From a bacterium (GTDB taxonomy: Bacteria; Patescibacteriota; Gracilibacteria; UBA1369; GCA-2718715), in assembly GCA_018662325.1 (NCBI GenBank), contig JABJGM010000002.1:72996-136995 (forward strand): 64,000 bases of DNA, given 5' to 3'. A program made the translations under genes and the position numbers. Shown here piece by piece: positions 29,446 through 49,672 of the stretch (position 1 is the first letter of the stretch; every line of letters starts with the position of its first letter). A model generated the notes under the pieces. It worked only from the letters and a program-made list of their open reading frames with translations, was not told where the DNA came from and searched no databases.

Positions 29446-29450
29446 AAGAA

Positions 29451-29477
29451 AAAAGCTCCTCTATGGAGCTTTTTTTT
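29451..29477. terminator. Bidirectional rho-independent terminator
   Basis: AAAAGCTCC-TCTAT-GGAGCTTTT with A tract upstream and T tract downstream, between convergent genes. Confidence 0.85.
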
Positions 29478-29481
29478 ATCT

Positions 29482-30234
29482 CTATTTCTTTGGAATATTT
29501 CCACCTATACCCTTAAGTGCTTCCAACCCTTCAATTGGTACCATCCAGATTGTGGTATTTGATTGATCGGAAGACAGATCATTTATAGATTGAAGAGTTC
29601 TTAAATGAAGAGCTCCAGGAGCTGTAGCCAATAAATGTGCAGCTTTAGAAAGATTTTCGGAAGCTTCTAATTCTGCCTTAGCTTTTATAATAACTGCTCT
29701 TTTTTCTCTTTCAGCTTCGGCTTCTTTGGCCATTGTTCTTTTTAAATCATTTGGAAGCCTTACATCTTTTAACTCAACTGATTCAACTCTTATCCCCCAT
29801 TCATCAGATGCTTTCTCTACAATATTTCTGATTTTATCTGCAACCTGATCTCGAGATCTTAAGAGAGTATCTAAATCAACAGTCCCTACAATATTTCTCA
29901 TTGTTGTTTGAGCTAATTGAGAAATAGCGTATCTGTAATTTTCTACGTTGATGATAGCTCTTTGTGCATCTTTTACGTTGTAGTAAATAACAGCGTTTAT
30001 AGAGATAGAAATATTATCTAAAGTGATTGCTTCTTGATCTGGAACGTCTACTGCTTTAGTACGCATATCAACTATATCCATACTCTGGAATATTGGAAGA
30101 ACTATTCTCCAACCTGAGCCTGAAACTCTGGAAAATTTTCCAAAGGTAAATTTTACTCCTTCTTCATATTCTTTTACTTCTTTAATTGAAGTGATGAGTA
30201 CCAAAATTATAATTGGTAATAAAAATGCTGTCAT
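29482..30234 (-). CDS. SPFH/stomatin-like (slipin) protein
   Basis: YEEGVKFTFGKF, VDMRTKAVDVPDQEAITLDNISISINAVIYYNV, EWGIRVESVELKDVRLP; one N-terminal TM. Confidence 0.9.
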   Translation of the reverse strand: MTAFLLPIIILVLITSIKEVKEYEEGVKFTFGKFSRVSGSGWRIVLPIFQSMDIVDMRTKAVDVPDQEAITLDNISISINAVIYYNVKDAQRAIINVENYRYAISQLAQTTMRNIVGTVDLDTLLRSRDQVADKIRNIVEKASDEWGIRVESVELKDVRLPNDLKRTMAKEAEAEREKRAVIIKAKAELEASENLSKAAHLLATAPGALHLRTLQSINDLSSDQSNTTIWMVPIEGLEALKGIGGNIPKK

Positions 30235-30268
30235 TTTATATTGGTTATATGTTATTTATTGATTTGTT

Positions 30269-31603
30269 TTATGATTCGTCTTTACATTGCTTTTCATGAA
30301 TTTTCTTCATGTTACCCAGTAAGGTTCCTTCGTTATCTTCCTCTATTATGTTAAGTGTTTTTTTAATAGTTTGCTTGGTTTTATCTAAAACTGAGGCTAG
30401 TTCCAAAGAAGAAAAATCAGCAATTTCAGCTCTTTGATTGTCAACAAGTCTTGCAAATTGTTTTTCAGATTGTCTTCTTGAGACTTCTTCAATAGCATTT
30501 TGTAAAAATGCATACTCTTCAAATGTTGAGGTTTGATTAAGATACTGACTAAATTGATCTACGGTTGTTGCCTCCATAAAAATTTTATTAACTTTGGCCT
30601 GGGTTTTATTTCCGAGGTTTTTATTTGAATCTGCTTTGTCTCCATAGGTATCTTTAATTTGTTGAATCTGCTTTTCAACAGTTGGAAACGTTTTTGACAT
30701 TACTTGTTTTAGTCCTTCCCAAGCTGAATAATCTTTACCTTCTGTAAAGCCATATATTTTCTTTAGCTTATCTTTATATAATTCCCCAGAAAATGCAGAC
30801 TTTGAAGTATTCCAAAACTTTTTAATGGTTCTCATAAGCTTGTTTGATTCTTTTCCAAATCCATTTTCATAAACCTCACCAAGACCTATATAGCCTTCTA
30901 CAACAGCATCTGCCTTGTCTAAAACAGCTCCCAAGCCACCAGCACATTCGCGCTTGCTATAGTCTCCATCTTTTAAGATACTAGGGGTTGAAGAGTTGTC
31001 ATAATAATTAAAACGGTGGGAATATTTTTCTACAAATAAACCAATGAATTCCTCTAATTTCTTTTTGTTTTGACTTTGTTGGGGATCTTGATTATAAACT
31101 TTTTTATACGAATTTAATAATCTATCAAACATTTCGGGTAAACCTTCAGTCTTAAACTGATTTATTGGTTCAGCACCTTCAGTTGCTTTTTCCCCGTATC
31201 CTAGAGCTTGATAAACGTCGACATTTCTTAGAAACTCAAGTTCTAATTCTAAAACTTTAATTTGTTCATTAATAATTGCGATCTGAGACCTTGTGTATCC
31301 AAATCCATTCTTTACTAAAAGATTGTATGAATCTTGCTTTTGTTCAACTACAAAAAATCGATCTCGTGTATTACAAAAATTATTTATATATCTAGATCCC
31401 TTGTAAACGTCAAAGTTTGTATTTAAGAAGTCTTCAGAGTATGAACTAAAATTTGCTAAACCATTATAGATTGATTGCACTGTAAATCCCATTTTATCAA
31501 GTGTGTTCATTTGTGACTGAGCAGTTTGGGTATAACCAATATTTATAAATAAAATAAATATGGAAATTATCGATAATTTTAAAATTTTTGATATTATTGA
31601 CAT
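30269..31603 (-). CDS. Exported helical protein of unknown function
   Basis: 444 aa with N-terminal signal-like segment; cysteine near C-terminus (EKQCKDES). Confidence 0.65.
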   Translation of the reverse strand: MSIISKILKLSIISIFILFINIGYTQTAQSQMNTLDKMGFTVQSIYNGLANFSSYSEDFLNTNFDVYKGSRYINNFCNTRDRFFVVEQKQDSYNLLVKNGFGYTRSQIAIINEQIKVLELELEFLRNVDVYQALGYGEKATEGAEPINQFKTEGLPEMFDRLLNSYKKVYNQDPQQSQNKKKLEEFIGLFVEKYSHRFNYYDNSSTPSILKDGDYSKRECAGGLGAVLDKADAVVEGYIGLGEVYENGFGKESNKLMRTIKKFWNTSKSAFSGELYKDKLKKIYGFTEGKDYSAWEGLKQVMSKTFPTVEKQIQQIKDTYGDKADSNKNLGNKTQAKVNKIFMEATTVDQFSQYLNQTSTFEEYAFLQNAIEEVSRRQSEKQFARLVDNQRAEIADFSSLELASVLDKTKQTIKKTLNIIEEDNEGTLLGNMKKIHEKQCKDES

Positions 31604-33273
31604 TTTGGTTTGGATAAAAATAATTTTGATGTCTCTTTGATAGAGAAGATAGAATCTTGTAAGCTTTTTAGGTTTTTATTAAATAGCTCCATTCTTTCTA
31701 AAAGTTGTGCATTTACGGAGTTAGCTGTAGCAGTTTTTTCTTCTAAAGATAATTTCAACTGACGATCTACTTGTGCCTCAATTATTTTTGATTGAAAATC
31801 TTGAATATCTTCTAAAACCTCTAAAAAGTTATTTGCATTTGAGAAATCTATTTCAGGTGCTGGAACTTGAGTCGCTTTAAATCTCTTTGAAATATCGCTA
31901 GGACTGATTTCTTGGATTGCCTTTTGAGGACTTGAAAGACTAAACAAAGACTTTGCTATAAAGTTAATATTGCTACTATTTATTTTATTTAAAAGATCTT
32001 TTTTACAGATTGGTGGTTCAAAATAATTACCCGTAAGTTTTTGAGGTATTAGGTTTTTATCATTAGTTTCTATAAATTTTTCATTCATACTGTCAAAAAT
32101 ACAATTTGTACAATTATTCGATGGAGTTAACCACCTTAAGTTTTGTCTAACTTCTTTAATATAAAAACAAAATCTTTGTTCTGGTGTTCCTACTGTTGAA
32201 TAAATAACATCACTTCCAGAATAACATGTGAACTCGGGAAACAAAGGATTACTATTTGTAAAACTTGGTAAATTAATACCGATATCTAGATTAGGATCTT
32301 CATCAGATTCATCTTCTTGGCTATCTGGATCTACTTGCCCGCCTGGAAAATTACCTTCTGAATCTGGATCATTTTGATTGTTTGAAGAGTGTGATTCTAA
32401 TTCATTTGCTAAGTTTGGACTTACTCCACATTGATCTGGTGTAAAATCTTGAACCTCACCTAAAGGTAAATCCTCTTGTTTATCACTGTTGTCAGTATCT
32501 GAACTTCTAATATCAGGATTGATATCATCTTTGAGATCTTCAACTACTTCATCGATATCTGTTTCTTCTAAATTCGTATCGTGATTTGTAGGTGATGACA
32601 AACTTTCTTGGTTTAATTCTGGAATTTGAAAAGTTTCCCATGGAACATTGTCACCAAAAAGTAAATTTTCTATATCTTTAAGATCCTCTAGTAAGTCAAA
32701 ATTGGAATCTAAAGTTGAATCATTAGCAAATATTTCAAAAGCTTTCGATTTAATAATCGCTTTATTTGTAATACTTATTACCTCTTTTTGATCTTCGTAA
32801 ACCTTTTCTAATTTTTGTCTTTCAGCAACTGCCTCTCCAACTGTAGATTTAGAAGTAAAATTTTCAATAAAAGTAGATTCAAACCAGTAGCCAACTTGGT
32901 CTGTAGCAGCATCTAGAATTTCTTGATTAGTTTTATAATGAATTTCACCGAATATACTTAAGTACAAATCTGGCTCACAGCAGTCTGGCACTGAATAAAC
33001 AGAATTGGTTGAATTAAAATAATAACCTTTTATGCCTCCAGCTAATTTTTCGCTATACTTTTCAATGTTATATTTCTTAAGAGAACCATAAGAATCATTA
33101 TCTAGATCAAGTTTTTCATTCTCATAATTTGCAACTGCATCTGATAATGCTTCCAAGACTTGATTTTTAACAGCAAGGTCAAGTTCAGCTTTAGCAATTG
33201 GTATGCTTAAAAAAATTAGTAGTCCGATTGTAATTGTGGTGAACTTTTTAAGTGCACGAAGTTGTTGTTGCAT
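31594..33273 (-). CDS. Exported acidic, cysteine-containing protein of unknown function
   Basis: ATG 33273 (MQQQLRALKKFTTITIGLLIFLSIPIAKA signal peptide) preferred over 33318; Asp/Ser-rich middle; ends KPKCQ. Confidence 0.65.
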   Translation of the reverse strand: MQQQLRALKKFTTITIGLLIFLSIPIAKAELDLAVKNQVLEALSDAVANYENEKLDLDNDSYGSLKKYNIEKYSEKLAGGIKGYYFNSTNSVYSVPDCCEPDLYLSIFGEIHYKTNQEILDAATDQVGYWFESTFIENFTSKSTVGEAVAERQKLEKVYEDQKEVISITNKAIIKSKAFEIFANDSTLDSNFDLLEDLKDIENLLFGDNVPWETFQIPELNQESLSSPTNHDTNLEETDIDEVVEDLKDDINPDIRSSDTDNSDKQEDLPLGEVQDFTPDQCGVSPNLANELESHSSNNQNDPDSEGNFPGGQVDPDSQEDESDEDPNLDIGINLPSFTNSNPLFPEFTCYSGSDVIYSTVGTPEQRFCFYIKEVRQNLRWLTPSNNCTNCIFDSMNEKFIETNDKNLIPQKLTGNYFEPPICKKDLLNKINSSNINFIAKSLFSLSSPQKAIQEISPSDISKRFKATQVPAPEIDFSNANNFLEVLEDIQDFQSKIIEAQVDRQLKLSLEEKTATANSVNAQLLERMELFNKNLKSLQDSIFSIKETSKLFLSKPKCQ

Positions 33274-33916
33274 TCGGTAATTTATTAGGATATTTTTTAA
33301 CTTCCATAAAGACGTCATATAATTTTGAATTCATGGTATGAAGTTCTTTTTTGATTTGGTAATACTGTGAATGTAATATATAAGCCGAGTAATTTTCCTT
33401 ATAAAAATCTACTGAAACTCTGTTAGCTTCACTAACCTTCTCTCTCAAAAACTCTTTATACTCCGGTAATGGTGTTGGGATAACCCTTTCTAAGGAAATA
33501 GTATAGTCAGCAAATTCTTTATCAAGTCTTTCTTTTAAACATATTGAAGATAAATTTTGAAAATCAGTATCTATAATTCTAATTTTTTGTTCATCATCTA
33601 CACATTCATTGTATAGGGCTGCATTATAGCTTTCGCTGGTAATATCATATGCAATAGTTGGAGGCTTTAAGATATCATGATACTTTTTAAGGTCTTGTGA
33701 AGCTACTAAGAAATATTCCTCTTCATGAAGTAAAAAAAGCTGGTTCTGAAATTCATTTGTAAGTTGGTTGTTTTTAGCAATAGTTTTAGCTGTGATTTTT
33801 ATATATTCATCGTATCGACTTGGAGCACCACTTGCCGAATTAGGAATTAAATTCCATGAAATAAGAGCGATAATTAATAAACCAAAAATTTTTATTGGCA
33901 TTTTGAAAGATAGCAT
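33248..33916 (-). CDS. Exported helical protein of unknown function
   Basis: 222 aa with signal peptide; ends TTTSCT; start at 33916 or 33901. Confidence 0.65.
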   Translation of the reverse strand: MLSFKMPIKIFGLLIIALISWNLIPNSASGAPSRYDEYIKITAKTIAKNNQLTNEFQNQLFLLHEEEYFLVASQDLKKYHDILKPPTIAYDITSESYNAALYNECVDDEQKIRIIDTDFQNLSSICLKERLDKEFADYTISLERVIPTPLPEYKEFLREKVSEANRVSVDFYKENYSAYILHSQYYQIKKELHTMNSKLYDVFMEVKKYPNKLPNATTTSCT

Positions 33917-34554
33917 ATTAGGTTGTCATTTATTTTATTGAATTGTTTTACAGATTCATCTGTAATGCTTAGTAGTTGTTCAAACTGTTTATTGATTTGA
34001 TCGTATTTTTCAAGGATTACAGCTCCCCTTTTGGCTTGAACACTTTTAGTAAGGGTAGACTTGTAAACATGTTTAATCTCATCTAGATACTCTTGCGTAA
34101 CTACAATACATTTGTTTTTTCTATCAATTTCTCTCTGGATATTTTGTTGTTCTTTGCTACTTGTTCCTTGTAAATTTTGTTCACTTTGAGCTAATCTTTC
34201 TTGAGTTTGAGATAAGTTTAAACTTATTAAGTATTTTGCTTTCATATAAGCATCTTTAAAATCTTGAATTAATGCTGAATCGTATGTTGGCTGACTTACC
34301 ACTTCTTTAAGTTCATCGTAAAACTCAGCTGTAATAAGGTTTAAAGTTCGGGTATATTCTTCTTCGCAAACTGGGGATGGATTATTGAGTCTATCTTGAA
34401 TTTCTGAAGATGTTGTTTGCTGAATTTTTTCTTGTTGTCTTTGTTGTTCTGAGGATTGTGGATTAGCAAGAACATTGAAAATTTGCGAAGATAAAATTAC
34501 TATCACTAAGATAAATATATAAATTAAATGACGTAATCTTTTATTTTTAACCAT
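33892..34554 (-). CDS. Exported coiled-coil protein of unknown function
   Basis: 220 aa, N-terminal signal/TM, Q-rich coiled coil, ends CYLSKCQ; overlaps giant ORF stop (ATGGTTAA). Confidence 0.65.
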   Translation of the reverse strand: MVKNKRLRHLIYIFILVIVILSSQIFNVLANPQSSEQQRQQEKIQQTTSSEIQDRLNNPSPVCEEEYTRTLNLITAEFYDELKEVVSQPTYDSALIQDFKDAYMKAKYLISLNLSQTQERLAQSEQNLQGTSSKEQQNIQREIDRKNKCIVVTQEYLDEIKHVYKSTLTKSVQAKRGAVILEKYDQINKQFEQLLSITDESVKQFNKINDNLICYLSKCQ

Positions 34555-37500
34555 CTATATTTGGGTTAATTTTAAATACTTTAGAAGTAGAATAAATTAT
34601 TGGATTTATAGGATCGTACTCACCATATATTATAAAAAATTTATCTTTATCCTGCAATGCAAGTCCTTGTTTTTTTTCATAAGGGCATGGACAAGCTGTA
34701 CAAATAGGATCCTTAACTCCAATACTAGAATCAGGTATTTCTGTGCTATCATCTGGACTCAATAGATCTTCTTGTTCATTAGTTAAACCAAATGCTTGTT
34801 TTTCTGAGGATTCCAGGGTTTCTTCTTTAGATGCTCTTTCAATTGATTCTTGAATGTGGGTTTGGCTTTCATTAATTCTATAATCTTCCAGTGGTAAACC
34901 TAATTTAGATCTTTGTTCTATACAATTATAAATATCGAGAGATCGAGAGATTAGAATTGCAAAATCTTGTCTGGAAATTGGTTGGTTTGGTTCTTGAGCT
35001 TCATCTTTGGTTAGAAGGAAGTTAGATTTAACAACTGCAGAGTCATTTAATATTGGAGTTAGATCTTGAGCAAATTTTAAGTAGTCTGTATACCATGGAT
35101 TTTTTTCTGTTACATCTTCAAGAGTAATTACATCCATGTTTTCTAGGGCTTCCATAATAACTTTTACAGCTTCTATTCTTGAAATAGTGTTAAATGGTTT
35201 AAATGGACTTTGTCCTAGATTATTAACTTCTCCTTTATATCCTTCAAATATTCCCAGGAAAAATGTTTCTTTAGTTATTGGATAAAACCAGTCATATGTA
35301 TTTGAATATAAAATATCAGAAAATACATTCGGTGATAAATAACTTTCTGGCCTAGGTTTAATACATAATATTTTTAATATTGTTTTTGCAAATTCACTTC
35401 TTAATAAAAAGTTAGTTGGTAAAAATAGATTTTGACCGTCAATGTTAACCCCTTGGAAAATCCCAAGCCTTGCTAGTCTATTGATCTCGTCAAATCCTTT
35501 AGTGTTTTCATTAATATCCGAAAATTGAGTGTCAGCTTTTAAATCAAGATCACTAATTCCCGCTTTTGGATTATCTTTTATTTGTTGATTGTGACTTTGG
35601 TAATCAGAATTTATAAACTGTTCTAACGATAGAGTATCTTCGATGTTTTGTATTTTAAAACTTACAAGATTCTTCCCATTGGCATTACCTCGTAGGGAGA
35701 TCCAATGTTGATCCAATGACTCAACATCTGGATTTTGATTGCTAGAGTCAAGTTCCAAAGTATATTGCTTATCAATTAAAACTGGGTTAGCAAACCGAGA
35801 AACCGCCAGTATGTTTTTATTGTTTTGCTTAACTATTGCAGTCTGATCAAGATCATTTAATGGATCATTGATTATTTCAATTGTAATATTGTCTTCTATG
35901 TTTTCGTCGACAATTACTAGCTGCGAGCTTGAATCATTACTCTTTTCCCTTGAGTCTATGATTTCTGGACTCAGATTTGAATCTGTTTTAAGTAAAACTT
36001 TTGTTATAGGTTGAGTGTCTTTTGAAACTAAAATAGTTAATAATTCTAAATCTTCATAGGAATTTAAAACTGTAAATTCAAGTGAGCTGTCATTAATTAT
36101 TAAATTGTTATCTTCAATTTCTATAGCTGGTCTATTTTTATTGTCGGTAATCTGTAGATTTTCCTGACTTGAAAATTTAAAATCAAAACTAGAGTCTTCT
36201 ACTAGATTAGTTTTTATAGGGATTAACCTATCTTGATTAGATTTTAAAATAGTTACATTTCCTTCAGTAACTCTAGGAACAATCTTACCTATTACGTTTG
36301 TATTAGATACTTTATCTAAAACAATATTTAGATCCTGAAGCTTAGGACTGATTTCAAGTTTAGATTGATTACCTGCTAAATCAACAGCTTGAATAGTTAT
36401 TTTATCAAGTTGGGGACTTGTTATTTTTGGTAAATTAAAAATTGGATTTAGCACATTCAAGGCGTAGGCTTGATTTCTATAATTAACAGACATTGATATA
36501 ATACGACTTCCAATATCAGTGCTGGTATTTAGATCAAGGTCTATATCTTGATATAAAACTGGGTTTGCAATGTCTGATATATTTCCAGATATAGTTGGAG
36601 CTACTCGATCTTTACAAAAATCAATAGACAACGCTTTTGGACCATTAAAGGTGTGTAAATTTGAATTAATCTTAGAGCTGTGTACTAGACTATATAAACC
36701 TAAAGGAATGTTTATTTTCAAACTAGATGATTGAGATTTTTTAACAAACATCTCTTGAAAATTATCCTTAGAAATAACTCCACTTAATGAATCAATTTGA
36801 TTTAGACTTTCAAATTCAGTTTCTTGATTTTCATCATGTAATATCACGTATCTTCTAAAAGGAATAAGTTTATCAGTCCCAGGTTTATAAATATCAATAA
36901 TTTGATTATCAAGATCTAGGTAGTTACTAAATGAAACTTGAATTTCCTCAAAAGACTCGGTGATCTGAATGTCTCTAGGTGTTAAAGTTTGTATTTCTTT
37001 ATCTAGATCTTCCCTTAGTGTAAATTGATCATTGCTACCATATCTAAAGTTTCTTTGAGAGTTTAAAGGCTTAAAGTAAACTTCTTTATCTATTGTATGA
37101 ATAATATCATCGTCAGAATCATAATCCAGGTCTGTAAAAATAAAATTAGATTGAGCCTCATCTTGATCTTCAAAAGAATACAGTCTAGAGAAGGATCCAT
37201 CTGGACTTACATAATGGACACCAGTAGGAAATTTAGCCTCAACGCCTTGACTAGAATTATCTCCTTGCCCTTGTGCTATATATTTAGCTCTATCTTTAAA
37301 GATCTTGTCTAATTTTTGAGAGTTATCAATAAGATTACTAAACTCTTTTACTGCATCCTTACTAATGGAAGTTTTTGGTAATAAATCAGAAACAATGCTT
37401 TTGTTTTGAGTAAATTTAACTGGATCTATGGAAGCAATATTTTTCTCGTCTGAATTTTCATACATTAGATCTGTAATATACTTTGCGTTATTAAGTTTAT

Positions 37501-40500
37501 CTTGATCAAAGAATATAGAATCTTCAACTTTAAAATTTTCTCGTGGCTTAAAATCAGTCATTTCAATTACGGTATGAGTACTTGGAAGTTTTATTTTTGC
37601 TTCAATTTCAGTTGCTCTTGCAAGTAAATCAAAAGCAGTTTTTAAATCAAGTCCAACTTTGGCATTTAGATCAACGTCTTCAAATTGGATTTCTTTTAAA
37701 AATTCATATTTGTAATCCAAAAGTTCATTAATTTCAAGAATCTTTTTATTGTATTCTTGGAACGCATCTTGAATTTGTAAATTTAGTGCTTGAGAGAAAG
37801 AGTTTAGTCCTTCGTAAATAGCATCGGTTTCATATGTTAAGTCAGATTCTAAAATTGCTTGATACTCTTTTACATAATCTAAGTCTAACTGAGGTAATTT
37901 GATTGAGATTTGTTTATCAATTGGTAAGACAACATCTAATGGTCGAGCAGTCATGTCTTGAATTGCTTTCGACAAAGTTAACTCTGGAACTGGGATTAAA
38001 CCTTTTTGAATTAAACAATATATTCTTAAAATTTGTTTTATCAAGTCTAGCTCTTCACCAATTTTTTCTTGAATATCAATTCCAACATCAGCAATTTCTG
38101 GTGCTACTGGAATTATAGGAAGTACTGGAATTTGGATTTTTGGTAAATCAGGAAGATCTATTAAGGTAGATAAGTCAGGTGGTCCCGGAAGAACAGGAAT
38201 TTTAATAGAGCCAAAAACTAAACCAATATCAAGATCAGGAGCGGAAGGAAATGTCATTTCAAAATTCATCCTTGGAAGAGGTAATGGCTGCGGGTTAAAT
38301 TTAATAATTGGCATTTTAATAAATAAACCAGTTTTAATTTTTGAAATATCCAAAGTGATATCTGGAATCTTTGGAAACTCCATAAATGGTAAAGAGTCAC
38401 CAATATCAGGAATTAAACCTAAAATTATATCTATGAATGATGATCCCCTTCTAGTTTTACAGTCGTCACATTTATCAAAGAAATCAATAAATACCTGGAA
38501 AATAAAATTAAAGTTATTGTAAATTTTTATCAAAGACTCAAACATTTTTGTCCATGTAGATAAATTTTTGGTATTTTGCGCAAACCAATCTACTACATTT
38601 GTTAATATTTGATCTCCCCAGTCAAGGACTTGCAATGCAAATTTTGAAATAAAATCTTGAATTTCAAATATTTGCAAAGGCATATCTCTCCATAATAAAG
38701 CTGACTGATAACTTTCATATAAATTAGTAGTTAAACCTTCCATACCAACTGCAAAATCAATACAAGATTTTTGCTTATCACTCTGTTGTCCATCTTTAGG
38801 TTTATTTACAACTGAAACAATTTTTGTAAGCTGTCCTCCTAAAATAAGATCAATGAAAAAACTTACTGTATCTTTCCAGTCTTTAGCTTGAGTGTCATAT
38901 GCTTTTTTTATAGCAGATACAAAACTATTTTCACCAGAAAAATTTGGATATTTTTTATCTTTATACGTCCATTCAATATCTGGACTTCCCATATTTTCAT
39001 TCCTAGGGTCGTTCAAAGTACTAAAACTTGCTTTAACCCTATCATTAAAGTTTTCAAAGTTATAATCTCCTAATTTATCTGCAGGTGGAACATTTTGATA
39101 ATCCATACATCCCCAAGAATAAAAAGCTTTTAAGAAATTTTGAATAGTCTTGTCTAAAGACAGTAATATACTTCTAAAGAATTTTGCTAACTCTTTGTCG
39201 TCGTACCAAGGGTAGTTTATAGACATGTTTTCTGTCTCAAACTCCCATATTGGCATTTTTGAAAGCTCCTCAAAATATTTTTGTTGGTTTTGCGTATACC
39301 TAGTAAATAAACTGTTTTTCTTTGCCGTATATTCTTCGAAATTCTTATATTCACCACAGAGTTCTTTGAAAGAATTATAGTTTTCTTTGGAAATGTTATC
39401 TGGGCAATTAGGAAAGGGATTTAAAGAATCAATTTTTGAAAGATCTTCTTCGTTAGTATAAAATCCAAATTCTCTAGCCCAACTATTTAAATTTGATAAC
39501 TCAAGATTATTATCGGCATTTAAAACAGGATATATAATATTTACATCAGGCATGTCTATCACCTTCACAATTTCAAAAAATTGATTTTTAGCCCAAGTTG
39601 AAAATATTGCAGGAAAAGAAGGTGGATTGAACTTTCTAGGAGCACCTCTATCTTCAAGACTTACAACTCCTTTAGTTGCCTTTGATACACCTTTGGCAAC
39701 ATAATTCATACCTTTAATAATTGATTTATTTACTTTTTTACAAACATCGTCTGGTAATGTCGCTACTTGAAACTTCAGGCATTGACCACCAATACATGGT
39801 GCTAAAACAAAACTTCCTGTCAGAGTTGGTGATAAATAAAGCTTAAATCCACATGGAAATGCAGGTGTTCCAAAACCAATTGGGATTGGTCCCCATGGGC
39901 ATGACAAACCAATTAAAGGAGTTGGTGGGCTTAGCATGCTTCCTGGTACTAAAAGCGCATCGTTATACGGAGTTGCAATACAACTATCTCCACATATTAA
40001 TTCTTTTAGTTTTTTTTCCGTTTTGTCAGCATAAGCTTTAACTTCATTCATAGCAGCTGAATAAAAATCGCTGGTTCCATCTTGATCAGAATCAGTAAAA
40101 AACTGCTTAACTCTAGACTCTTGCGCATAGGCATTTAGTTCATCTTCGGTTTTGTCGGCAATCCCCGTAACATCAAAATCCATACTTTCAGATATGTTAA
40201 CTCTAGGGGGTGCCAAGTATTGATAAACAGGATGAAATCCAAATTCAGATGATTGTAAATACAAAACTTTTGAACCAGAAACAAATGGAATTTTAATATC
40301 TAACAATCCATCGGAACCAATAGACTGATTAATTATATCAGTAGAGAAATCTTGGATATTTCTACCTGGATCTATATTTGACTGTGATATAAAATCAACA
40401 TGAGTTTGATTTATAAAATTACTAGTAAATTCATCTTTTACAGTATCTACAAATGGAACATCGGAGACAGAATTTTTATCAATTTTAATTAAAAACTTTA

Positions 40501-43500
40501 ATGTTGTAGAAGTACTAAAATTAAAACTTTGATCGCTAATATAGTTATAACTACCGCTATCTATTCTTTTCATATCAAAAGACTGATTATTTACCATCAA
40601 AGATGCACTTAAAGCATTATCAGGTAAATTAATTGCAACAGGACTATTGAAAGAACCATCACTTGAGGACCTAAAGACATCAGTAAAAATTTCAATATTT
40701 AAAACACTTGAATCCAACGGATCTTGAATTGCATTTAAATCAAATTTTGAATAATTAAACTCAGAATGACTTTTTAGGTTAGAGAAATTATTTGTAGGAT
40801 TATCTAAATTCTCATCTTTTAAATAAACATAGTTCTCATCTAAGAAATACTTAGCTGGATATGGAAAAATAAAAGATTCAAATTTCTTCTCAAGTCTTTG
40901 GTTTTGACTTCTATGAAAAACTCTAAAATTAAAATCGCTATCGTAAACCATTAAATCAAAAATAGAATCATTATTTAGGTCAGCAGTGTATATCTTTTTA
41001 GGCTTAATTTTTTCTGGCAAGTCAAATCTATCCAACACTAACTCCCCTGAATCTTCTTTAAGAATATAAGTACAGGTATCCTTTAGATGACAATGATCTT
41101 CAAATAAAATTAAAACTTCTAAAGGATCTTCATTTAAGACGATTAATTGCTTAGGCTTCAAAGGAAGTTTAATATGAGATTCTTGTAGAATTTGTCTTTC
41201 CTTGTTATATAAAGAAATAAAACCTTCCTCATCGCCAATTATAATAAACTTTTCAGTATCTAAAATACTTTCAGCTGTAGACTTTAAAGTTGCAATTTTT
41301 TGTCCAAGAGTTTTATTGAAATTTCCTTGTCCTTGAATAAGATTATTTAATTTCAAAGTTGGATCACCAACTAAAACGGTTGAAAGATCTGCATACGACA
41401 TCAGACTTGGGCCCATGGCTTGGCCTGAAGTAAATAACAATAAAGTTTTATCTTGAGAATTTGCTAGTCTTGACGGGTTATCCATACCTTTAGATAGGTT
41501 TGATTTTGCTTGGTTTAAAAATAAACTTTCAGACTCATAAGGCTTAACAAAAGATACACTATTTAAATAGTTATAAATCGAATGAGTATTTTCTGACTTC
41601 TTAGTAATAATTGGATGCTCATAATAATACGGACTCTCTGCAAGTTGTGCTTTTTTAGAATTCAGATACAGACTTGCAACTTTAATATCTTTATAAAACA
41701 AATCGTAATTTAAAATATTAAAGTTTTCAGGTGAAGGTGAAGATGAAATTGAAATCTGATCTGAAAGAATAAGACCATCATCGATTGAAATCAACTCTAG
41801 ATCATCAAAACTTATTGATTTTGAATCAAAAACAACATCGGCGTTTTGACTTGAGGGTTCGATTAAAATGAACTCCTGACTAAAGTAACTTGTAGGATCG
41901 GATGTAATTCTAAGACTTTCGGATTTCAAAAAAGGAACATTTAAGAATTTTTGCCCTTCATAAAAAAAGTTTAAATTGATTCTATTATCATTGATTTCCA
42001 GTTGATTGCTTAATTTTGAATCTTGGAAAATCTCTAAACTTTTATCTGGATGAATAGTAAGTAACCTTTGATTTTCTCGATGTGAATTAGTATTTGTTAT
42101 TACAGCTTGAGTTTTACCCGATAACAACAATGATTCAGCTTTTGAGTTATATAGTTCTGACTGATTAGTGTTTAATAAATAACTTAAGGAGTTTGAGTTT
42201 AGGCCTTGAATATCATTTTTAGTAAGACCTAAAGCTAAATGAAAGTTTAGAGTTTCTTGTATTTCCTCAGCTTTTATTTTCACTTCAAAATAACCTGTTT
42301 GAAGTGGAATAGAGTTAAACCTCAATGAAGCTTGCCCATTAGACATCCTGGATTGAGAACTTTGATCTAATGTTATTTTAGACTCATCAAATTCGATATC
42401 TAAATCAGAATTAAGTTTGGTTACATTATTAAAATCATCTGCCAGAGTGGCTCTTATTGTTATTTCATTTGATTCTAATCCCGAAAGTAATTTTGGTCCT
42501 GTAACCAAGGTCAACTTAGAAGCTTTTCCTGGTAAAACCTTTATAGAATGAGTTAATTTTTGAATACCATTGAATTCAACCTCAAAACTATATTCCCCTG
42601 CTGTTCTTGGAAGATTAACTTGAAAATTATAAACACCATTAGAAGCATCCTTCGGGACAACTTTTACTTTTTTATTATCTGAAGTAAACTTTGGGGATCC
42701 AAAGTCTACAATTGAATTGTTTGAATCGAATAATTTAAAGCTAAAATTTTTAGGTTCTACATCATCTGCCGATATCTCTTTAAAAGACAAAAATTCTTCA
42801 GCTTTAACAGTCAAACCTTCAACAAATTTAGTTTTGAATTCGCCTTCAATACTCTTAGCGACTTTTTGTTGGGAAACTAAGATTTCAAATTTCTCATCAA
42901 AAAGTGGAATATATTTATACTGACTATTTAACAATAATGAAACTTCACCTGCATTAATAGGAACCGCCTTAACACTTGCAATACCATCTTCAAATTTTAA
43001 TTGAACACCAGCTTTATCTTTATCTAAATCATCATTTAAAATTTGGATATCTCCAGAATCTTGAATTGTAAATATCTCTTCAAAATCTTTACTTATATCT
43101 TCATTTTGAGTCAAAGCCACAACGCTAAATTCAAATTCTTCAGAAGCTAAGCTTATAAAATTAGGTAAATTCCTAACAACAATCTTACTTGGTTTTTCAG
43201 ATGAATACTTAAAGTCTGTATTTCCTTCCTCTGGCCATACAAAGCTATACGAATCAGTGTCAAATACGGATTTAACCCTATCGCTTTGTTCATCAAACCA
43301 CTCAGGTAGGTATTCGGTAAAATATGTAAATAAACTCTCTCCACTATTTTCTACATTAAAATCTTCAATAATACTTTGCGACGGTGGCTTTTGGTATGAC
43401 TGAGAAATTTGGTTTTTAGAAAAATCAGGACTAGTCAAATCAAACAAAATTTGATTTTCATCTGAGAAACTATTAATTTCCACAAAATCAAAACTTTGGT

Positions 43501-45898
43501 TAAACCCATCAATATCCAAAGGAAAATCTGCATCCAATAAATTCTTAAGCATTAATCTGTACTTAGAATTTAGATCTAGGGAAAGATAATTGATTAAAAA
43601 TTCAATCTTAGGAAGGCTTGCAAATTCGATCTCTTCAATGCTTAAGTCAGAACTCAAGCCATCTTGATAACCGTTGGAAAAGAGTTGCTCTAATAAAGCT
43701 TGTTCATCAAGAGGCAAACCTAAAGTTCTAATTTTACTTAAGGAAGAATTAACTTGCTCTAAATACTCAGAAGAAGAAGTGGCATAAAAAGCATCAGGTA
43801 GAATGTCTTTTTGAAACTCTCCTTGATAATCATAATATGTTACATAATTTCTATGATCTACTGGTAAATTTAGATTTCCTGATATCAATGCTTTTTCAAC
43901 TATGTTTCCATTAGGATCAGCATGTAAAGTAAAAGAAGGAATAGTTTTGCTTGAAGGAAATTTAGTTACGTCCATTCTTAAAGTAGCAATTTCAGATTCA
44001 TCACCAAAAGGATTTTCTTTGATAAAAGTATTTTTAACCGGATTAGCTAAAAAATAAGAGGAGAACAGATGCCAATCTTGTGAGTCATAGTTATCTACAA
44101 AAACCTTAAAAGCTCTTGATAAATTAAAAGGACCGTCTATCGAGTCACCCATAAAATCATCATCAGAATTTTCAATTCTATTCAACAATGGAGTATTGCC
44201 TGCATTTACCGGAAGCCCAAAAAAATTAAAAATACCTTTCTTATCAATAAACTCATCGAAACTATTCATCGCAAAACAAGATCTAACATCCAACTTACTT
44301 TCATAATCTAATTCAATTGGATATCCCCTATATTCATCCTGAAGAACGTCACCTCTAAATAAAGTACAATTACTCGAATTTAGATCTTTCCTATATGAAC
44401 TTCTGCGAAGTTTATAGTCTTGAGTTTGTCTTGGCGGATTATAACAAGTAGGCCCTTGATCTTCTGGATTCACTCCTATAAGACCAGCCCTGTTGTTATA
44501 CATTGTTTTATAAACATCATCTTTCAATCCTCCACCTCTGTAAATCCTACAGTCACTTGAACTGCTTACATTTTGATAATCTTTACCGTGAATTTGTGGC
44601 TCGTGTGCACCGATAACTGTCGTTTCGTCTTGCAGAATGTCGAAATCAAAATTATCAAAATTCGAATCTTCAATACCATGATTTAAGAAATTTTTACTTC
44701 CTATCGTCTGAGAATTACCATCTCTATCAAAAGTTTTTAATGTAATCGAAGAACCTTTTAAAATATTCACCGGAACTGCAACTTTTTCAAAAGCCTTTGT
44801 ATACTCTCCCTGCACGAATTTATTTAAACTTTTTAGATAATTTGCCGCATAGTCATCTAGGTACTCAATAGCTAAAAAAGGAGAATAAATCTTTCCAGAA
44901 TCATACCTTCCAGTACTATCGGCTTTCTTTGCAGATGCTCGAACTGCATTCTTAAATAACTCCCCTGCACTTACCTTTAAAGACTTTAAGACAGTTGGCA
45001 TCATTGTATCTGCATTCTTATCTAAATTTTCTAAAATCTGTGAAAACTCAGGAATGACATCTTGCGCATTAAGCGACTCAACAACCTCTTTTGTAACTTT
45101 ATTTTGAGCTAAGTATCTATTGGCAGATTGAAAAACATCATAAAGAGGCTTAATTTCATCAATCAACAGCTTAGATTCATTAAAACTATCAGCCAGCATA
45201 ATACTAGCCCTATCTGCATTTGAAAAACCAGGAGCCTTGATAGCATTAAGGTGATTCTTATCTAAAAAACTAGCAACATCACCATAATTATTCTGACTCT
45301 CTGAAAAATTTATTAGCCCATGCCAAATCTCAGGACTATAATTAGTCTTAGCTGAATCAACCTCAAACCTATCAAGATCTTGGCTATACAAAAACCCAGG
45401 ATTATCAAAGTCGGTATAAGGGTACATACTTAGTATGGATTGATCTTGATTATGCAACTTTGCTAGTGGCACATTACCAACCAAGACAATACCTTTAAGC
45501 TCGTAATCTGTGAAATCACTATAATTGTTGAAATAAATATTTTTTAGATAGGTTGCAATTTCAATAGGATTCTTAGACGACTCAACGTTTACAATATTTA
45601 CATCTGTATTTGAAAACTTTTTCCGAACGTCTTGAGCATACCTTTTTACCCTCTGCGGTAAATTAGTCGTATTCAATCCTGAATAATCTTGAGTCAAACC
45701 AAGATAAGACTCGCTCGAATTCATCAATCTAGAATCAGCCAATATAAGTATTAAATTCTTACGCTTAGAAAAATCTAAATTCTCTAAAGCAAAAGCCACC
45801 GATGATTCGTTTAAAAAACTAACTGAAGTAAGCGAAAAAATCAAAAAGGCACATAAACTTTTTTGAAAAACTTTCAATAAATTAAATTTGGTTATCAT
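34547..45898 (-). CDS. Giant (3783 aa) exported surface protein with FG-GAP/VCBS-like segments and C-terminal SLH-like domains
   Basis: Uninterrupted 11.35-kb ORF; N-terminal signal peptide; GIVLVGNVPLAKL and STVLVGDPTLKL segments; IYTADLNNDSIFDLMVYDSDF and FTDLDYDSDDDIIHTID repeats; C-terminal RLARLGIFQGV...RSEFAKTILKIL and FKPFNTISRIEAVKVIMEAL SLH-like units. Confidence 0.85.
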   Translation of the reverse strand: MITKFNLLKVFQKSLCAFLIFSLTSVSFLNESSVAFALENLDFSKRKNLILILADSRLMNSSESYLGLTQDYSGLNTTNLPQRVKRYAQDVRKKFSNTDVNIVNVESSKNPIEIATYLKNIYFNNYSDFTDYELKGIVLVGNVPLAKLHNQDQSILSMYPYTDFDNPGFLYSQDLDRFEVDSAKTNYSPEIWHGLINFSESQNNYGDVASFLDKNHLNAIKAPGFSNADRASIMLADSFNESKLLIDEIKPLYDVFQSANRYLAQNKVTKEVVESLNAQDVIPEFSQILENLDKNADTMMPTVLKSLKVSAGELFKNAVRASAKKADSTGRYDSGKIYSPFLAIEYLDDYAANYLKSLNKFVQGEYTKAFEKVAVPVNILKGSSITLKTFDRDGNSQTIGSKNFLNHGIEDSNFDNFDFDILQDETTVIGAHEPQIHGKDYQNVSSSSDCRIYRGGGLKDDVYKTMYNNRAGLIGVNPEDQGPTCYNPPRQTQDYKLRRSSYRKDLNSSNCTLFRGDVLQDEYRGYPIELDYESKLDVRSCFAMNSFDEFIDKKGIFNFFGLPVNAGNTPLLNRIENSDDDFMGDSIDGPFNLSRAFKVFVDNYDSQDWHLFSSYFLANPVKNTFIKENPFGDESEIATLRMDVTKFPSSKTIPSFTLHADPNGNIVEKALISGNLNLPVDHRNYVTYYDYQGEFQKDILPDAFYATSSSEYLEQVNSSLSKIRTLGLPLDEQALLEQLFSNGYQDGLSSDLSIEEIEFASLPKIEFLINYLSLDLNSKYRLMLKNLLDADFPLDIDGFNQSFDFVEINSFSDENQILFDLTSPDFSKNQISQSYQKPPSQSIIEDFNVENSGESLFTYFTEYLPEWFDEQSDRVKSVFDTDSYSFVWPEEGNTDFKYSSEKPSKIVVRNLPNFISLASEEFEFSVVALTQNEDISKDFEEIFTIQDSGDIQILNDDLDKDKAGVQLKFEDGIASVKAVPINAGEVSLLLNSQYKYIPLFDEKFEILVSQQKVAKSIEGEFKTKFVEGLTVKAEEFLSFKEISADDVEPKNFSFKLFDSNNSIVDFGSPKFTSDNKKVKVVPKDASNGVYNFQVNLPRTAGEYSFEVEFNGIQKLTHSIKVLPGKASKLTLVTGPKLLSGLESNEITIRATLADDFNNVTKLNSDLDIEFDESKITLDQSSQSRMSNGQASLRFNSIPLQTGYFEVKIKAEEIQETLNFHLALGLTKNDIQGLNSNSLSYLLNTNQSELYNSKAESLLLSGKTQAVITNTNSHRENQRLLTIHPDKSLEIFQDSKLSNQLEINDNRINLNFFYEGQKFLNVPFLKSESLRITSDPTSYFSQEFILIEPSSQNADVVFDSKSISFDDLELISIDDGLILSDQISISSSPSPENFNILNYDLFYKDIKVASLYLNSKKAQLAESPYYYEHPIITKKSENTHSIYNYLNSVSFVKPYESESLFLNQAKSNLSKGMDNPSRLANSQDKTLLLFTSGQAMGPSLMSYADLSTVLVGDPTLKLNNLIQGQGNFNKTLGQKIATLKSTAESILDTEKFIIIGDEEGFISLYNKERQILQESHIKLPLKPKQLIVLNEDPLEVLILFEDHCHLKDTCTYILKEDSGELVLDRFDLPEKIKPKKIYTADLNNDSIFDLMVYDSDFNFRVFHRSQNQRLEKKFESFIFPYPAKYFLDENYVYLKDENLDNPTNNFSNLKSHSEFNYSKFDLNAIQDPLDSSVLNIEIFTDVFRSSSDGSFNSPVAINLPDNALSASLMVNNQSFDMKRIDSGSYNYISDQSFNFSTSTTLKFLIKIDKNSVSDVPFVDTVKDEFTSNFINQTHVDFISQSNIDPGRNIQDFSTDIINQSIGSDGLLDIKIPFVSGSKVLYLQSSEFGFHPVYQYLAPPRVNISESMDFDVTGIADKTEDELNAYAQESRVKQFFTDSDQDGTSDFYSAAMNEVKAYADKTEKKLKELICGDSCIATPYNDALLVPGSMLSPPTPLIGLSCPWGPIPIGFGTPAFPCGFKLYLSPTLTGSFVLAPCIGGQCLKFQVATLPDDVCKKVNKSIIKGMNYVAKGVSKATKGVVSLEDRGAPRKFNPPSFPAIFSTWAKNQFFEIVKVIDMPDVNIIYPVLNADNNLELSNLNSWAREFGFYTNEEDLSKIDSLNPFPNCPDNISKENYNSFKELCGEYKNFEEYTAKKNSLFTRYTQNQQKYFEELSKMPIWEFETENMSINYPWYDDKELAKFFRSILLSLDKTIQNFLKAFYSWGCMDYQNVPPADKLGDYNFENFNDRVKASFSTLNDPRNENMGSPDIEWTYKDKKYPNFSGENSFVSAIKKAYDTQAKDWKDTVSFFIDLILGGQLTKIVSVVNKPKDGQQSDKQKSCIDFAVGMEGLTTNLYESYQSALLWRDMPLQIFEIQDFISKFALQVLDWGDQILTNVVDWFAQNTKNLSTWTKMFESLIKIYNNFNFIFQVFIDFFDKCDDCKTRRGSSFIDIILGLIPDIGDSLPFMEFPKIPDITLDISKIKTGLFIKMPIIKFNPQPLPLPRMNFEMTFPSAPDLDIGLVFGSIKIPVLPGPPDLSTLIDLPDLPKIQIPVLPIIPVAPEIADVGIDIQEKIGEELDLIKQILRIYCLIQKGLIPVPELTLSKAIQDMTARPLDVVLPIDKQISIKLPQLDLDYVKEYQAILESDLTYETDAIYEGLNSFSQALNLQIQDAFQEYNKKILEINELLDYKYEFLKEIQFEDVDLNAKVGLDLKTAFDLLARATEIEAKIKLPSTHTVIEMTDFKPRENFKVEDSIFFDQDKLNNAKYITDLMYENSDEKNIASIDPVKFTQNKSIVSDLLPKTSISKDAVKEFSNLIDNSQKLDKIFKDRAKYIAQGQGDNSSQGVEAKFPTGVHYVSPDGSFSRLYSFEDQDEAQSNFIFTDLDYDSDDDIIHTIDKEVYFKPLNSQRNFRYGSNDQFTLREDLDKEIQTLTPRDIQITESFEEIQVSFSNYLDLDNQIIDIYKPGTDKLIPFRRYVILHDENQETEFESLNQIDSLSGVISKDNFQEMFVKKSQSSSLKINIPLGLYSLVHSSKINSNLHTFNGPKALSIDFCKDRVAPTISGNISDIANPVLYQDIDLDLNTSTDIGSRIISMSVNYRNQAYALNVLNPIFNLPKITSPQLDKITIQAVDLAGNQSKLEISPKLQDLNIVLDKVSNTNVIGKIVPRVTEGNVTILKSNQDRLIPIKTNLVEDSSFDFKFSSQENLQITDNKNRPAIEIEDNNLIINDSSLEFTVLNSYEDLELLTILVSKDTQPITKVLLKTDSNLSPEIIDSREKSNDSSSQLVIVDENIEDNITIEIINDPLNDLDQTAIVKQNNKNILAVSRFANPVLIDKQYTLELDSSNQNPDVESLDQHWISLRGNANGKNLVSFKIQNIEDTLSLEQFINSDYQSHNQQIKDNPKAGISDLDLKADTQFSDINENTKGFDEINRLARLGIFQGVNIDGQNLFLPTNFLLRSEFAKTILKILCIKPRPESYLSPNVFSDILYSNTYDWFYPITKETFFLGIFEGYKGEVNNLGQSPFKPFNTISRIEAVKVIMEALENMDVITLEDVTEKNPWYTDYLKFAQDLTPILNDSAVVKSNFLLTKDEAQEPNQPISRQDFAILISRSLDIYNCIEQRSKLGLPLEDYRINESQTHIQESIERASKEETLESSEKQAFGLTNEQEDLLSPDDSTEIPDSSIGVKDPICTACPCPYEKKQGLALQDKDKFFIIYGEYDPINPIIYSTSKVFKINPNIDG

Positions 45899-45995: not shown

Positions 45996-46022
45996 TAAAA
46001 AAAAAACCACTCCAAAGAGTGG
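45996..46022 (-). terminator. Rho-independent terminator downstream of the pilin gene
   Basis: On minus strand CCACTC-TTTG-GAGTGG followed by a long T tract. Confidence 0.85.
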
Positions 46023-46047
46023 CTAAATTCAACAAATACCAATAGAA

Positions 46048-46593
46048 TTAGTTAATAATTACCATTACGTTGGTAGCATCATCTGCAGCAGGGGCCAATC
46101 CTTGACCAACCTCTTGATTATCAGTAATACCATTATCAAACGTAAAGGCTTGATCGTGATTAATAGGATCTTCAGATCTCATAAATACCGCATAGTTACC
46201 AAGAGTAGGATTATTAAGCTTTTGATAATAAACTCGATCATGGTTTTGATTATCTCCAACCGTACAATAAACTTTGGCATCAGCAGTAAATTTTTGACTT
46301 GGCGCTACATTTCCGAAGTAAGACACTAATGTCGTTTCATCACCTGTAAGATTTTGAAGACCATCTTTCTCACCATCAATACAGAAAGTACCATCTGGAT
46401 AAGTTCCTTCTTCTAAATAGTACATCTCTACGTTAGAAACAACCTCTCCAAGAAGTTTTTTACGTGCAATATCACTAGTTTTTCCACCGATTCCTGTTAG
46501 ATTAGGTAGTAAAAAACCTACCAAAACACCTATAATGGTGATCACAATTAAGATTTCAATAAGAGTGAAACCTTTTTGTATATATTTGTTCAT
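46048..46593 (-). CDS. Type IV pilin/pseudopilin-like protein
   Basis: MNKYIQKGFTLIEILIVITIIGVLVGFLLPNL class III signal; two Cys in C-terminal half. Confidence 0.92.
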   Translation of the reverse strand: MNKYIQKGFTLIEILIVITIIGVLVGFLLPNLTGIGGKTSDIARKKLLGEVVSNVEMYYLEEGTYPDGTFCIDGEKDGLQNLTGDETTLVSYFGNVAPSQKFTADAKVYCTVGDNQNHDRVYYQKLNNPTLGNYAVFMRSEDPINHDQAFTFDNGITDNQEVGQGLAPAADDATNVMVIIN

Positions 46594-46686
46594 GGGTTAA
46601 ACATTAATTAAACTAAAAATAGCATGTGGCTTTTTTGCGTGTTTGGCAAATAATTTGACTTACTATATTTGAAATCTTAAGTTTAA

Positions 46687-47913
46687 TTAAAATACACTTA
46701 TATTAGATATCATTTGACTTAACGGCAACATAATAGCCAAAACCACTGTTCCAACCACACCACCAAGTACAAGCATAACAACAGGTTGTAAAAGCTTTGT
46801 AAAATTTTGCAACTTGTCAGAGAGGCTTTTATGGTTGTTACTTGCGACTTTTAATGCAACCTGAGGAAGATTACTAGACTTCTCACCTACTGCCAACTGA
46901 GAAATAAAGAAGTCAGAAAAATATGGACTTAAAAACATTGCATCACAAAGTTTTATACCACTTTTAACGTCTTCCAATAGATAAAATATGTAACTTTTAA
47001 GGTAATAATTTGCAGTAGATTCTCGAGCAATCTCCAAAGACCTTACGATTGAGACTCCGTTAAACATAAGCGATCCTAGCGTTTGAGCAAATAAACTCTG
47101 ATTCTTTAACTGCTGAATATCTTTTACAAATGGCAAATTTAGTAGTAAGAAATCATAAATTCGCTTACCCAAACTGGTTTTAAGCATTGATATACAAGCA
47201 ACGATTAAAATAGAAATGAAGCTTATTAAAAATAAAAAGTTTGAGTTTAAAAAATCAGAAGCCGCGATAATATTCTGAGTAATCATTGGCAATTCCATAT
47301 CTGAACTCACAAATAAACTACTAACCTGAGGAATTACGAATTTCAACATAGCTATTACAACTAGTAAAGTAAAAATCATCACCATAATTGGATACAGCGA
47401 AGCCTTTTTAACTTCATTTCTTAATTCTAATTGAAATTTCAAATCATCACTCAACTGGCTTAAGCTCGTGCTTAACTTCCCTATTGATTCCCCAGCTGAA
47501 ATCATTCCTATTTCTTTTGAGTCAAAACAAGACTTAAAACCCTTTAAAATCTCCGATATCTTCCTACCTTGCTTGATACTTAGTAAACACACATTTAAAA
47601 CAAATTTAACTTTTTTATCTTGAGATTGTTTCTGCAAAATATTAAAAGTTTCATCAATTGATATTCCAGAATCCAACAACAAAGCTACATTCTCAAATAT
47701 ATATAACTTCTGTGAAACAGAAAGCTTGATTTTGTTTTCTGAAAACATAAAGAGCTGATGAATCTTATCTCTAAAAGATTCTGACTTAAATTCAGTAATA
47801 TAATTCACTCCCGATGGATCAACAGTAGACAATATCTCTAAATGCGTCCCCTGCTTTAAATTTAAATCAGTTTGTTCTTGATTAAATACATTTAACTTTG
47901 TGTTCTCTCTCAT
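46687..47913 (-). CDS. pilC: Type IV pilus inner-membrane platform protein PilC/GspF
   Basis: Duplicated T2SSF domains (FENVALLLDSGISIDETFNILQKQ; FAQTLGSLMFNGVSIVRSLEIARE), TMs; adjacent to pilB. Confidence 0.9.
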   Translation of the reverse strand: MRENTKLNVFNQEQTDLNLKQGTHLEILSTVDPSGVNYITEFKSESFRDKIHQLFMFSENKIKLSVSQKLYIFENVALLLDSGISIDETFNILQKQSQDKKVKFVLNVCLLSIKQGRKISEILKGFKSCFDSKEIGMISAGESIGKLSTSLSQLSDDLKFQLELRNEVKKASLYPIMVMIFTLLVVIAMLKFVIPQVSSLFVSSDMELPMITQNIIAASDFLNSNFLFLISFISILIVACISMLKTSLGKRIYDFLLLNLPFVKDIQQLKNQSLFAQTLGSLMFNGVSIVRSLEIARESTANYYLKSYIFYLLEDVKSGIKLCDAMFLSPYFSDFFISQLAVGEKSSNLPQVALKVASNNHKSLSDKLQNFTKLLQPVVMLVLGGVVGTVVLAIMLPLSQMISNISVF

Positions 47914-47915
47914 AT

Positions 47916-49163
47916 TTATGAATTAACAACTCTAAGAATTTCAGACAAGGTAGTCTTTGAATCTAAAACACTTTTTAATCCAGACTGAAGCAACGTTACC
48001 ATTCCATTTCTCTTTGCAATTTTTTTTAATTCACCAATAGTTTCTCCTCCTACCAAGGCATTCTTAAATTCTTGCGTGAAAACAAGTATCTCATAAAGAG
48101 GAACTCGACCCTTAAATTTATCTAAATCAGTAAGACCATCTTTTAAATGTGGAATCTTAAATTCCGTAAGATCTACATCTTTCAAGAATTGGCTTGGAGC
48201 ATCTTTAAGATTAGCTTTAATATAATCTTCAACTTGAATAGGATTTGACTTATACTCAATAGCATCAGGGTTTACTTTTCTCACTAACCTTTGAGCGATC
48301 ACGCATCTAATTGAACTTGCCAACAAATACCTTGGAACCCCCATATTAATCATTCTTGAAATTGTTTCAATTGCACTATTGGTATGAATTGTTGAAAAAA
48401 CCAAGTGACCAGTTAAGGATGCTTCAATCGCTGTATTTAAAGTCTCTTGATCACGAACCTCACCAACCATAATAATATCAGGATCTTGCCTTAAAGCTGC
48501 CCTTAAACCTTTTGCAAAATCAAATCCTATTTCCTTTTTTGTTTGCGCCTGAGAAGTTCCCTTTAGAGGAATTTCTACTGGATCTTCAATAGTTAAAATA
48601 TTACTCTTTCCGTCATTCAGATAATTTAAAGCTGAATACAAAGTTGTAGTCTTACCACTACCAGTGGGTCCTGAGGTTAAAATCACACCATTTGGATTTT
48701 TTAAAGCTTCTTTAAGTAATTTTAAATTGTATTGACTCATACCTAACGCTTCTAAGCTGGGGATGTCTTTTGTTCTATCAACTAAACGCATTACAATCTT
48801 TTCACCTTTTATGGTTGGCAGGGTTGAAACTCTTAAATCCATAGATTTGCCATCAACAGTAGTAACTTGAGCATGACCATCCTGAGGAATTCGAGTCTCA
48901 TCTATCTTTAAATTTGAGATAATCTTAATCCTACTACAAATGGCTGGATGAACCATATTTGCATAAGAAATTACTTCATGCATCATCCCATCAATTCTAA
49001 ATCGAATAAAAACCTTATCATCTTCAGGCTGAATATGAACGTCAGATACTCCTATTTCAAGTGCTAAACTTAAAGTATTTAAGACTATTTCAGGCACATT
49101 TTGAGATGCAACAGAGCTTTCCAACTTTTGATAATCTTGATTTTGATTGATAATATTTGTCAT
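47916..49163 (-). CDS. pilB: Type IV pilus assembly ATPase PilB/GspE
   Basis: VSDVHIQPEDDKVFIRFRIDG, GPTGSGKTTTLYSAL Walker A, TIEDPVE, LRQDPDIIMVGEVRD, LTGHLVFSTIHTN. Confidence 0.95.
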   Translation of the reverse strand: MTNIINQNQDYQKLESSVASQNVPEIVLNTLSLALEIGVSDVHIQPEDDKVFIRFRIDGMMHEVISYANMVHPAICSRIKIISNLKIDETRIPQDGHAQVTTVDGKSMDLRVSTLPTIKGEKIVMRLVDRTKDIPSLEALGMSQYNLKLLKEALKNPNGVILTSGPTGSGKTTTLYSALNYLNDGKSNILTIEDPVEIPLKGTSQAQTKKEIGFDFAKGLRAALRQDPDIIMVGEVRDQETLNTAIEASLTGHLVFSTIHTNSAIETISRMINMGVPRYLLASSIRCVIAQRLVRKVNPDAIEYKSNPIQVEDYIKANLKDAPSQFLKDVDLTEFKIPHLKDGLTDLDKFKGRVPLYEILVFTQEFKNALVGGETIGELKKIAKRNGMVTLLQSGLKSVLDSKTTLSEILRVVNS

Positions 49164-49164
49164 T

Positions 49165-49671: not shown

Positions 49672-49672
49672 A

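Follow-up and report, generated by a model that had tools for sequence, protein, structure and literature searches.

A predicted class-wide gene module for a giant SLH-repeat protein and four exported partners in Peregrinibacteria, Gracilibacteria and Absconditabacteria

Proteins held on the cell wall by SLH repeats have been described in Paenibacillus alvei. According to the available text of that work, SLH trimers bind a peptidoglycan-linked secondary wall polymer (PMC6081394). The giant protein analysed here shares with that system its C-terminal SLH repeats and a CsaB-type pyruvyltransferase encoded in the genome but, as far as the same text presents the P. alvei proteins, differs from them in its size (3,800-5,800 aa for the family), its alpha/beta N-terminal domain, a proline-rich block, a CxxCPC motif and four partner families. 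Vampirococcus lugosii, which belongs to the same class, has exported giant membrane proteins that were proposed to act in host recognition; the available text of that paper deals with giant proteins in general and not with the gene set described below or its partners (PMC8080830). Giant ORFs of Omnitrophota/Velamenicoccus likewise come from ultra-small, probably host-dependent bacteria and, as here, have been proposed to encode adhesins or coats, but they are reported to be poorly conserved (PMC10066038), whereas the giant studied here is conserved throughout its class and keeps the same neighbours. Pilus adhesins of the PilY1 type are also large and exported, and their genes lie beside those of the type IV pilus; the giant differs in having no PilY1-family domain, an apparent SLH wall anchor and, judging by a terminator-like site, its own transcription unit. 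No description of the giant and its partners as a cluster was found in a literature search whose scope left out most subscription journals and preprints.

The window, a 64,000-nucleotide stretch of a 159-kb contig (assembly of 980 kb in 14 contigs), contains six minus-strand genes that fill positions 29482-45898, with overlapping or touching junctions and a terminator-like hairpin on either side (Table 1). The initial annotation had read them as probably a single transcription unit for a giant SLH-type protein, four exported partners (P1 to P4) of no recognised family and an SPFH protein, and all six ORFs were recovered at the same positions. SLH is the sole Pfam domain of the giant over the cut-off (25.3 versus 20.8 bits, aa 3459-3504), an Invasin_D3 match being sub-threshold. 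The last gene product is indeed of the SPFH type (Band_7/SPFH; E-value: 1.8e-42) but falls below the HflK equivalog cut-off of NCBIfam and hence is not named HflK. P1 to P4 all score below the cut-offs of Pfam and NCBIfam, and a check for unrelated families across Pfam, NCBIfam and PDB profiles matched none. Counted from the first ATG of P3, its overlap with P2 would span 33248-33318; the shorter overlap first annotated (33248-33273) corresponds to a start at Met16, which matches relatives more closely. Chance can be excluded for this layout because the order giant-P1-P2-P3-P4 is found in about 20 genomes.

Table 1. Features of the giant-protein locus and its surroundings (positions in the window)
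Feature	Position	Strand	Description
Type IV pilus cluster	46048..50863	-	Two PilN/PilO-like genes (called from position and size only), PilB (T2SSE), PilC (T2SSF), pilin (N_methyl)
Terminator-like hairpin and T tract	46005..46024	-	Between pilin gene and giant; consensus match
Giant ORF	34547..45898	-	3783 aa; N-terminal signal-like segment
Rossmann-like alpha/beta domain of giant (predicted)	45239..45769	-	aa 44-220; N-terminal, conserved; motifs GVVLIGxVPLP, PYTDF, PEIWHG
Most conserved block of giant	37559..38851	-	About aa 2350-2780; neck (helical by eye) with CDxC, then proline-rich LPxLP
SLH-type repeats of giant (three)	34919..35536	-	About aa 3455-3660; first scored by Pfam, other two from alignment
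CxxCPC motif of giant	34685..34702	-	aa 3733-3738; conserved, near C-terminus
P1	33892..34554	-	Predicted exported helical partner, 220 aa; Cys63, Cys149, Cys219 conserved
P2	33248..33916	-	Predicted exported helical partner, 222 aa; Cys105, Cys126, Cys221 invariant; C-terminal TTxxC conserved
P3	31594..33273	-	Predicted exported; start at Met16 of longest ORF (31594-33318, 574 aa); six Cys invariant, two of them forming a CxxC pair
P4	30269..31603	-	Predicted exported helical partner, 444 aa; KQC-type C-terminal end
SPFH/Band_7 protein	29482..30234	-	250 aa; HflK-like; not a conserved member
Terminator-like hairpin	29449..29475	-	3' of SPFH gene; consensus match

No terminator-like site was found in any junction among the six genes, and three other weak matches on the minus strand are intracoding. 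As the total number of such sites in the region (6) is no higher than in shuffled sequences (6.5), only the positions of the two bounding hairpins and the recurrence of the first carry weight; a similar hairpin is present in the pilin-giant gap of several relatives. The sequence between this hairpin and the giant is almost the same in both genomes of the genus, and a plausible -10 element can be made out in it by eye. On these sequence features we favour two adjacent units, the pilus genes and then the giant through SPFH. With terminator-like sites at both ends and tight junctions, the single transcription unit first suggested for the six genes is plausible. One operon joining the pilus genes to the module is disfavoured by the terminator-like site between them, though read-through could occur.

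Outside a few conserved blocks, the giants differ greatly from one another in both sequence and length. Two of these blocks, aa 8-400 and aa 2370-2750, are prominent in homologues found with residues 1-3,000 of the protein as the query. The N-terminal domain (aa 44-220) is predicted to have a Rossmann-like core, with pLDDT mostly 75-93. It has no Pfam match, it resembles no PDB fold at E<=0.001 (the E-value for a caspase was only 0.12), and profile searches of PDB gave only chance-level coiled-coil matches. A C25/caspase-like reading made by eye was not confirmed; the alignment shows no invariant Cys beside the conserved WHG. At the other end, an SLH match at E<=0.01 was found in 19 of 21 orthologous C-termini, and TSP3-type repeats occur in the C-terminal part of the giants in 13 of 21 genomes.

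A second very long ORF (2,704 aa, without an obvious signal peptide) and its neighbours, which encode proteins of 1,165, 595 and 456 aa, are located at 63368-64000 of the window and L123:364-8478. By eye, the 595-aa product looks polytopic and VirB6-like; neither it nor the 1,165-aa protein has a Pfam match, and this cluster is possibly T4SS-like.

A hydrophobicity heuristic classes the N-termini of all five products, the giant and P1 to P4, as Sec-type. Each partner family can be aligned across the order, with cysteines that are invariant or nearly so and low overall sequence conservation. A Cys lies within the last nine residues of P1 in 18/21 genomes, P2 in 21/21, P3 in 13/21 (leaving eight with no C-terminal Cys) and P4 in 18/20, compared with 26/315 for other genes of the loci. 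Profile comparison suggests that P1 is a remote relative of P2 (probability 93.6) and of the N-terminal part of P4 (85.5). Profile searches of P1 to P4 against PDB gave chance-level coiled-coil matches only, and the AlphaFold model of P3 (mean pLDDT 47) was unusable. Most P3 orthologues carry CxxCH, in which the CxxC is invariant and the His is present in 13/21 (counted by eye). A heme-binding or c-type cytochrome function for P3 was considered and rejected since this His is not conserved and is absent from the P3 of the window, which has CTNCI.

Homologues of the giant were found in 53 of 59 close genomes (query: first 3,000 aa), and their open frames are usually 3,800-5,800 aa on contigs that do not end inside the gene. 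The relatives compared include Candidatus Peregrinibacteria, Gracilibacteria and Absconditabacterales MAGs. In the 21 contig stretches compared, the partners proved syntenic with the giant, the order being type IV pilus genes, pilin(s), giant, P1, P2, P3 and P4; this claim of synteny covers order-level relatives whose contig spans the region. Median gaps in 20 clusters are +1.5 nt (giant-P1), -13.5 nt (P1-P2), -10 nt (P2-P3) and -2.5 nt (P3-P4), and 143 nt 5' of the giant. One exception, G019, has a pilin and a giant with no partners adjoining, and its P3 lies about 40 kb off on the same contig. The SPFH gene behaves differently. Only the two genomes of this genus have it immediately after P4; a second genus of the family has it at a distance of 587 nt, and all other clusters lack it. 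The suggestion that the SPFH protein organises the membrane site of the giant is not borne out by this distribution, and the gene was rejected as a core member of the module; on comparative grounds it is a local addition.

Of the 292 class genomes, 201 match a profile of the giant's conserved block and 180 match P3. Outside the order, the two occur together in 113 genomes, the giant without P3 in 36 and P3 without the giant in 9, while 74 genomes lack both (Fisher p 7e-23, phylogeny ignored). In two genomes of other orders (G103 and G074) the giant is followed by all four partners, and in G062 and G093 by P2, P3 and a P4-like gene. In some families the giant frame is interrupted by TGA alone, which fits the use of TGA for glycine in Gracilibacteria and Absconditabacteria. 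Recoded genomes still encode P2, P3 and a P4-type protein, either close to the giant (G123, G111) or away from it, the genes being scattered and often unlinked; the order in G123 is giant, a 265-aa protein, P4-like, P2 and P3. The P4-like family is linked to P4 over the last 39 residues (profile probability 91), and profile comparison did not establish P1-type homology in recoded genomes. VirB6-like genes lie 3' of P3 in G123 and in no other genome inspected, and a T4SS link was set aside. A sample of 389 genomes from across the phylum comprised 37 within the class and 352 outside it, and none of the 352 matched the profiles of the giant's mid-block, its N-terminal domain or P3. Within the class, family f19 likewise gave no convincing matches. 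From these sequence comparisons, a five-gene module of the giant and P1 to P4 almost certainly exists across the class, in Peregrinibacteria, Gracilibacteria and Absconditabacteria. Neither the class restriction nor the linkage to pilus genes had been part of the initial annotation.

Two further observations were made among class relatives. Many recoded genomes keep P3 and a P4-like gene as a pair beside a Clp-type gene; in several genera of recoded families (L126, L127, L131, L132, L133, L135, L139) the pair directly follows this Clp-ATPase-like gene, whose product has about 850 aa. In one relative (G060:C6:85000-144999; L114-L116) the giant reaches about 7,860 aa and has no recognisable partners adjoining.

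A wall-polymer pyruvyltransferase of the CsaB family (PF04230) is encoded in 38 of 40 genomes, including that of the window, although membership in this family alone does not fix the wall polymer as the substrate. Together with the SLH repeats, it supports attachment to the wall in the way established for SLH proteins, and the giant appears to be wall-anchored through these repeats. The small genome of the window has about ten ORFs with SLH (contigs C1, C4, C5, C6, C11 and C13), so SLH repeats alone are nothing special here. The partners had been suggested to serve as secreted assembly, anchoring or structural factors for the giant. Their dedication to it is upheld, as they are syntenic with it across this and other orders, co-occur with it even when unlinked and match no unrelated family. 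An anchoring role is explained better by the giant's own SLH repeats and the pyruvyltransferase. A DsbA-like family is present in 24 of 26 genomes, and a DsbA-like (Thioredoxin_4) protein is encoded in the window at about 12852-13337 (G000:C5:85847-86332). A search for VKOR found none in the genome to which the window belongs, so a complete disulfide pathway is unproven there.

The proposed model for the module, which we regard as rather likely, is a class-specific surface fibre of the giant, anchored by SLH repeats on pyruvylated polymer, with P1 to P4 bound to it and a possible role in cell contact. The giant would be exported by Sec and then held on the pyruvylated wall polymer by its SLH repeats, while its N-terminal alpha/beta domain and repeats would project outward. 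P1 to P4 would bind the giant as small helical subunits, and disulfides could form between the partners' C-terminal cysteines and the CxxCPC/CDxC motifs of the giant. Synteny, co-retention and shared cysteine features make a physical complex of the giant with P1 to P4 probable. The fibre or complex may contact other cells beside the type IV pili, so that the pili capture a cell and the module holds it. This role in cell contact is the weakest step, for which we put the chances as even, and it is drawn from the biology of the lineage: both cultivated Absconditabacteria are predatory (PMC11452946), and a part in host attachment has been proposed for giant proteins and pili in Vampirococcus (PMC8080830).

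The neighbouring pilus genes could instead mean that the module belongs to the type IV pilus machine, for instance with the giant in a PilY1-like role, as the tip adhesin or wall gate of monoderm pili, and P1 to P4 as accessory proteins. Wherever the contig of an order genome extends far enough upstream, a pilin gene lies directly 5' of the giant, usually with PilB and PilC. However, no PilB or PilC was found beside the giant in the class genomes inspected outside the order (G103, G074 and recoded ones), a terminator-like site divides the two units here and in several relatives, the giant has no PilY1-family, beta-propeller or VWA match in Pfam, and an SLH anchor would tether it to the wall and not to a pilus. 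We consider this unlikely. The SLH repeats, large size, near-universal presence in the order and accompanying pyruvyltransferase would equally suit an S-layer lattice protein or general coat, for which P1 to P4 would be lattice or wall-assembly factors with no part in host contact. That reading is improbable given that the giant is a single gene among about ten SLH-bearing ORFs and that its divergence in sequence and length is unusual for a lattice subunit.

The partners might also be export or processing factors for the giant (chaperones or secretion aids) rather than structural subunits. Such factors would show the same synteny and class restriction, and helical, Cys-bearing extracytoplasmic chaperones exist in other systems. 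Yet instead of one chaperone there are four distinct families whose C-terminal cysteines are conserved, and none matches a known chaperone or secretion family, which makes this distinctly unlikely. Low partner conservation and the other secreted proteins of the genome could suggest mere neighbours with unrelated secreted functions; this is already disfavoured and very improbable, since across the class the genes keep their order, join tightly and have a phyletic range in common.

Taken furthest, the surface-fibre model would make the module a disulfide-linked, undescribed host-contact apparatus that works beside type IV pili, defines a predatory or epibiotic class and is ancestral to Peregrinibacteria, Gracilibacteria and Absconditabacteria; this is a tentative and rather doubtful extension. 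We know of no identified genes for host recognition or holding in most Patescibacteria outside Saccharibacteria. A module kept class-wide, known predators included, despite genome reduction and a change of genetic code is a concrete and testable candidate, and it gives context to four new protein families.
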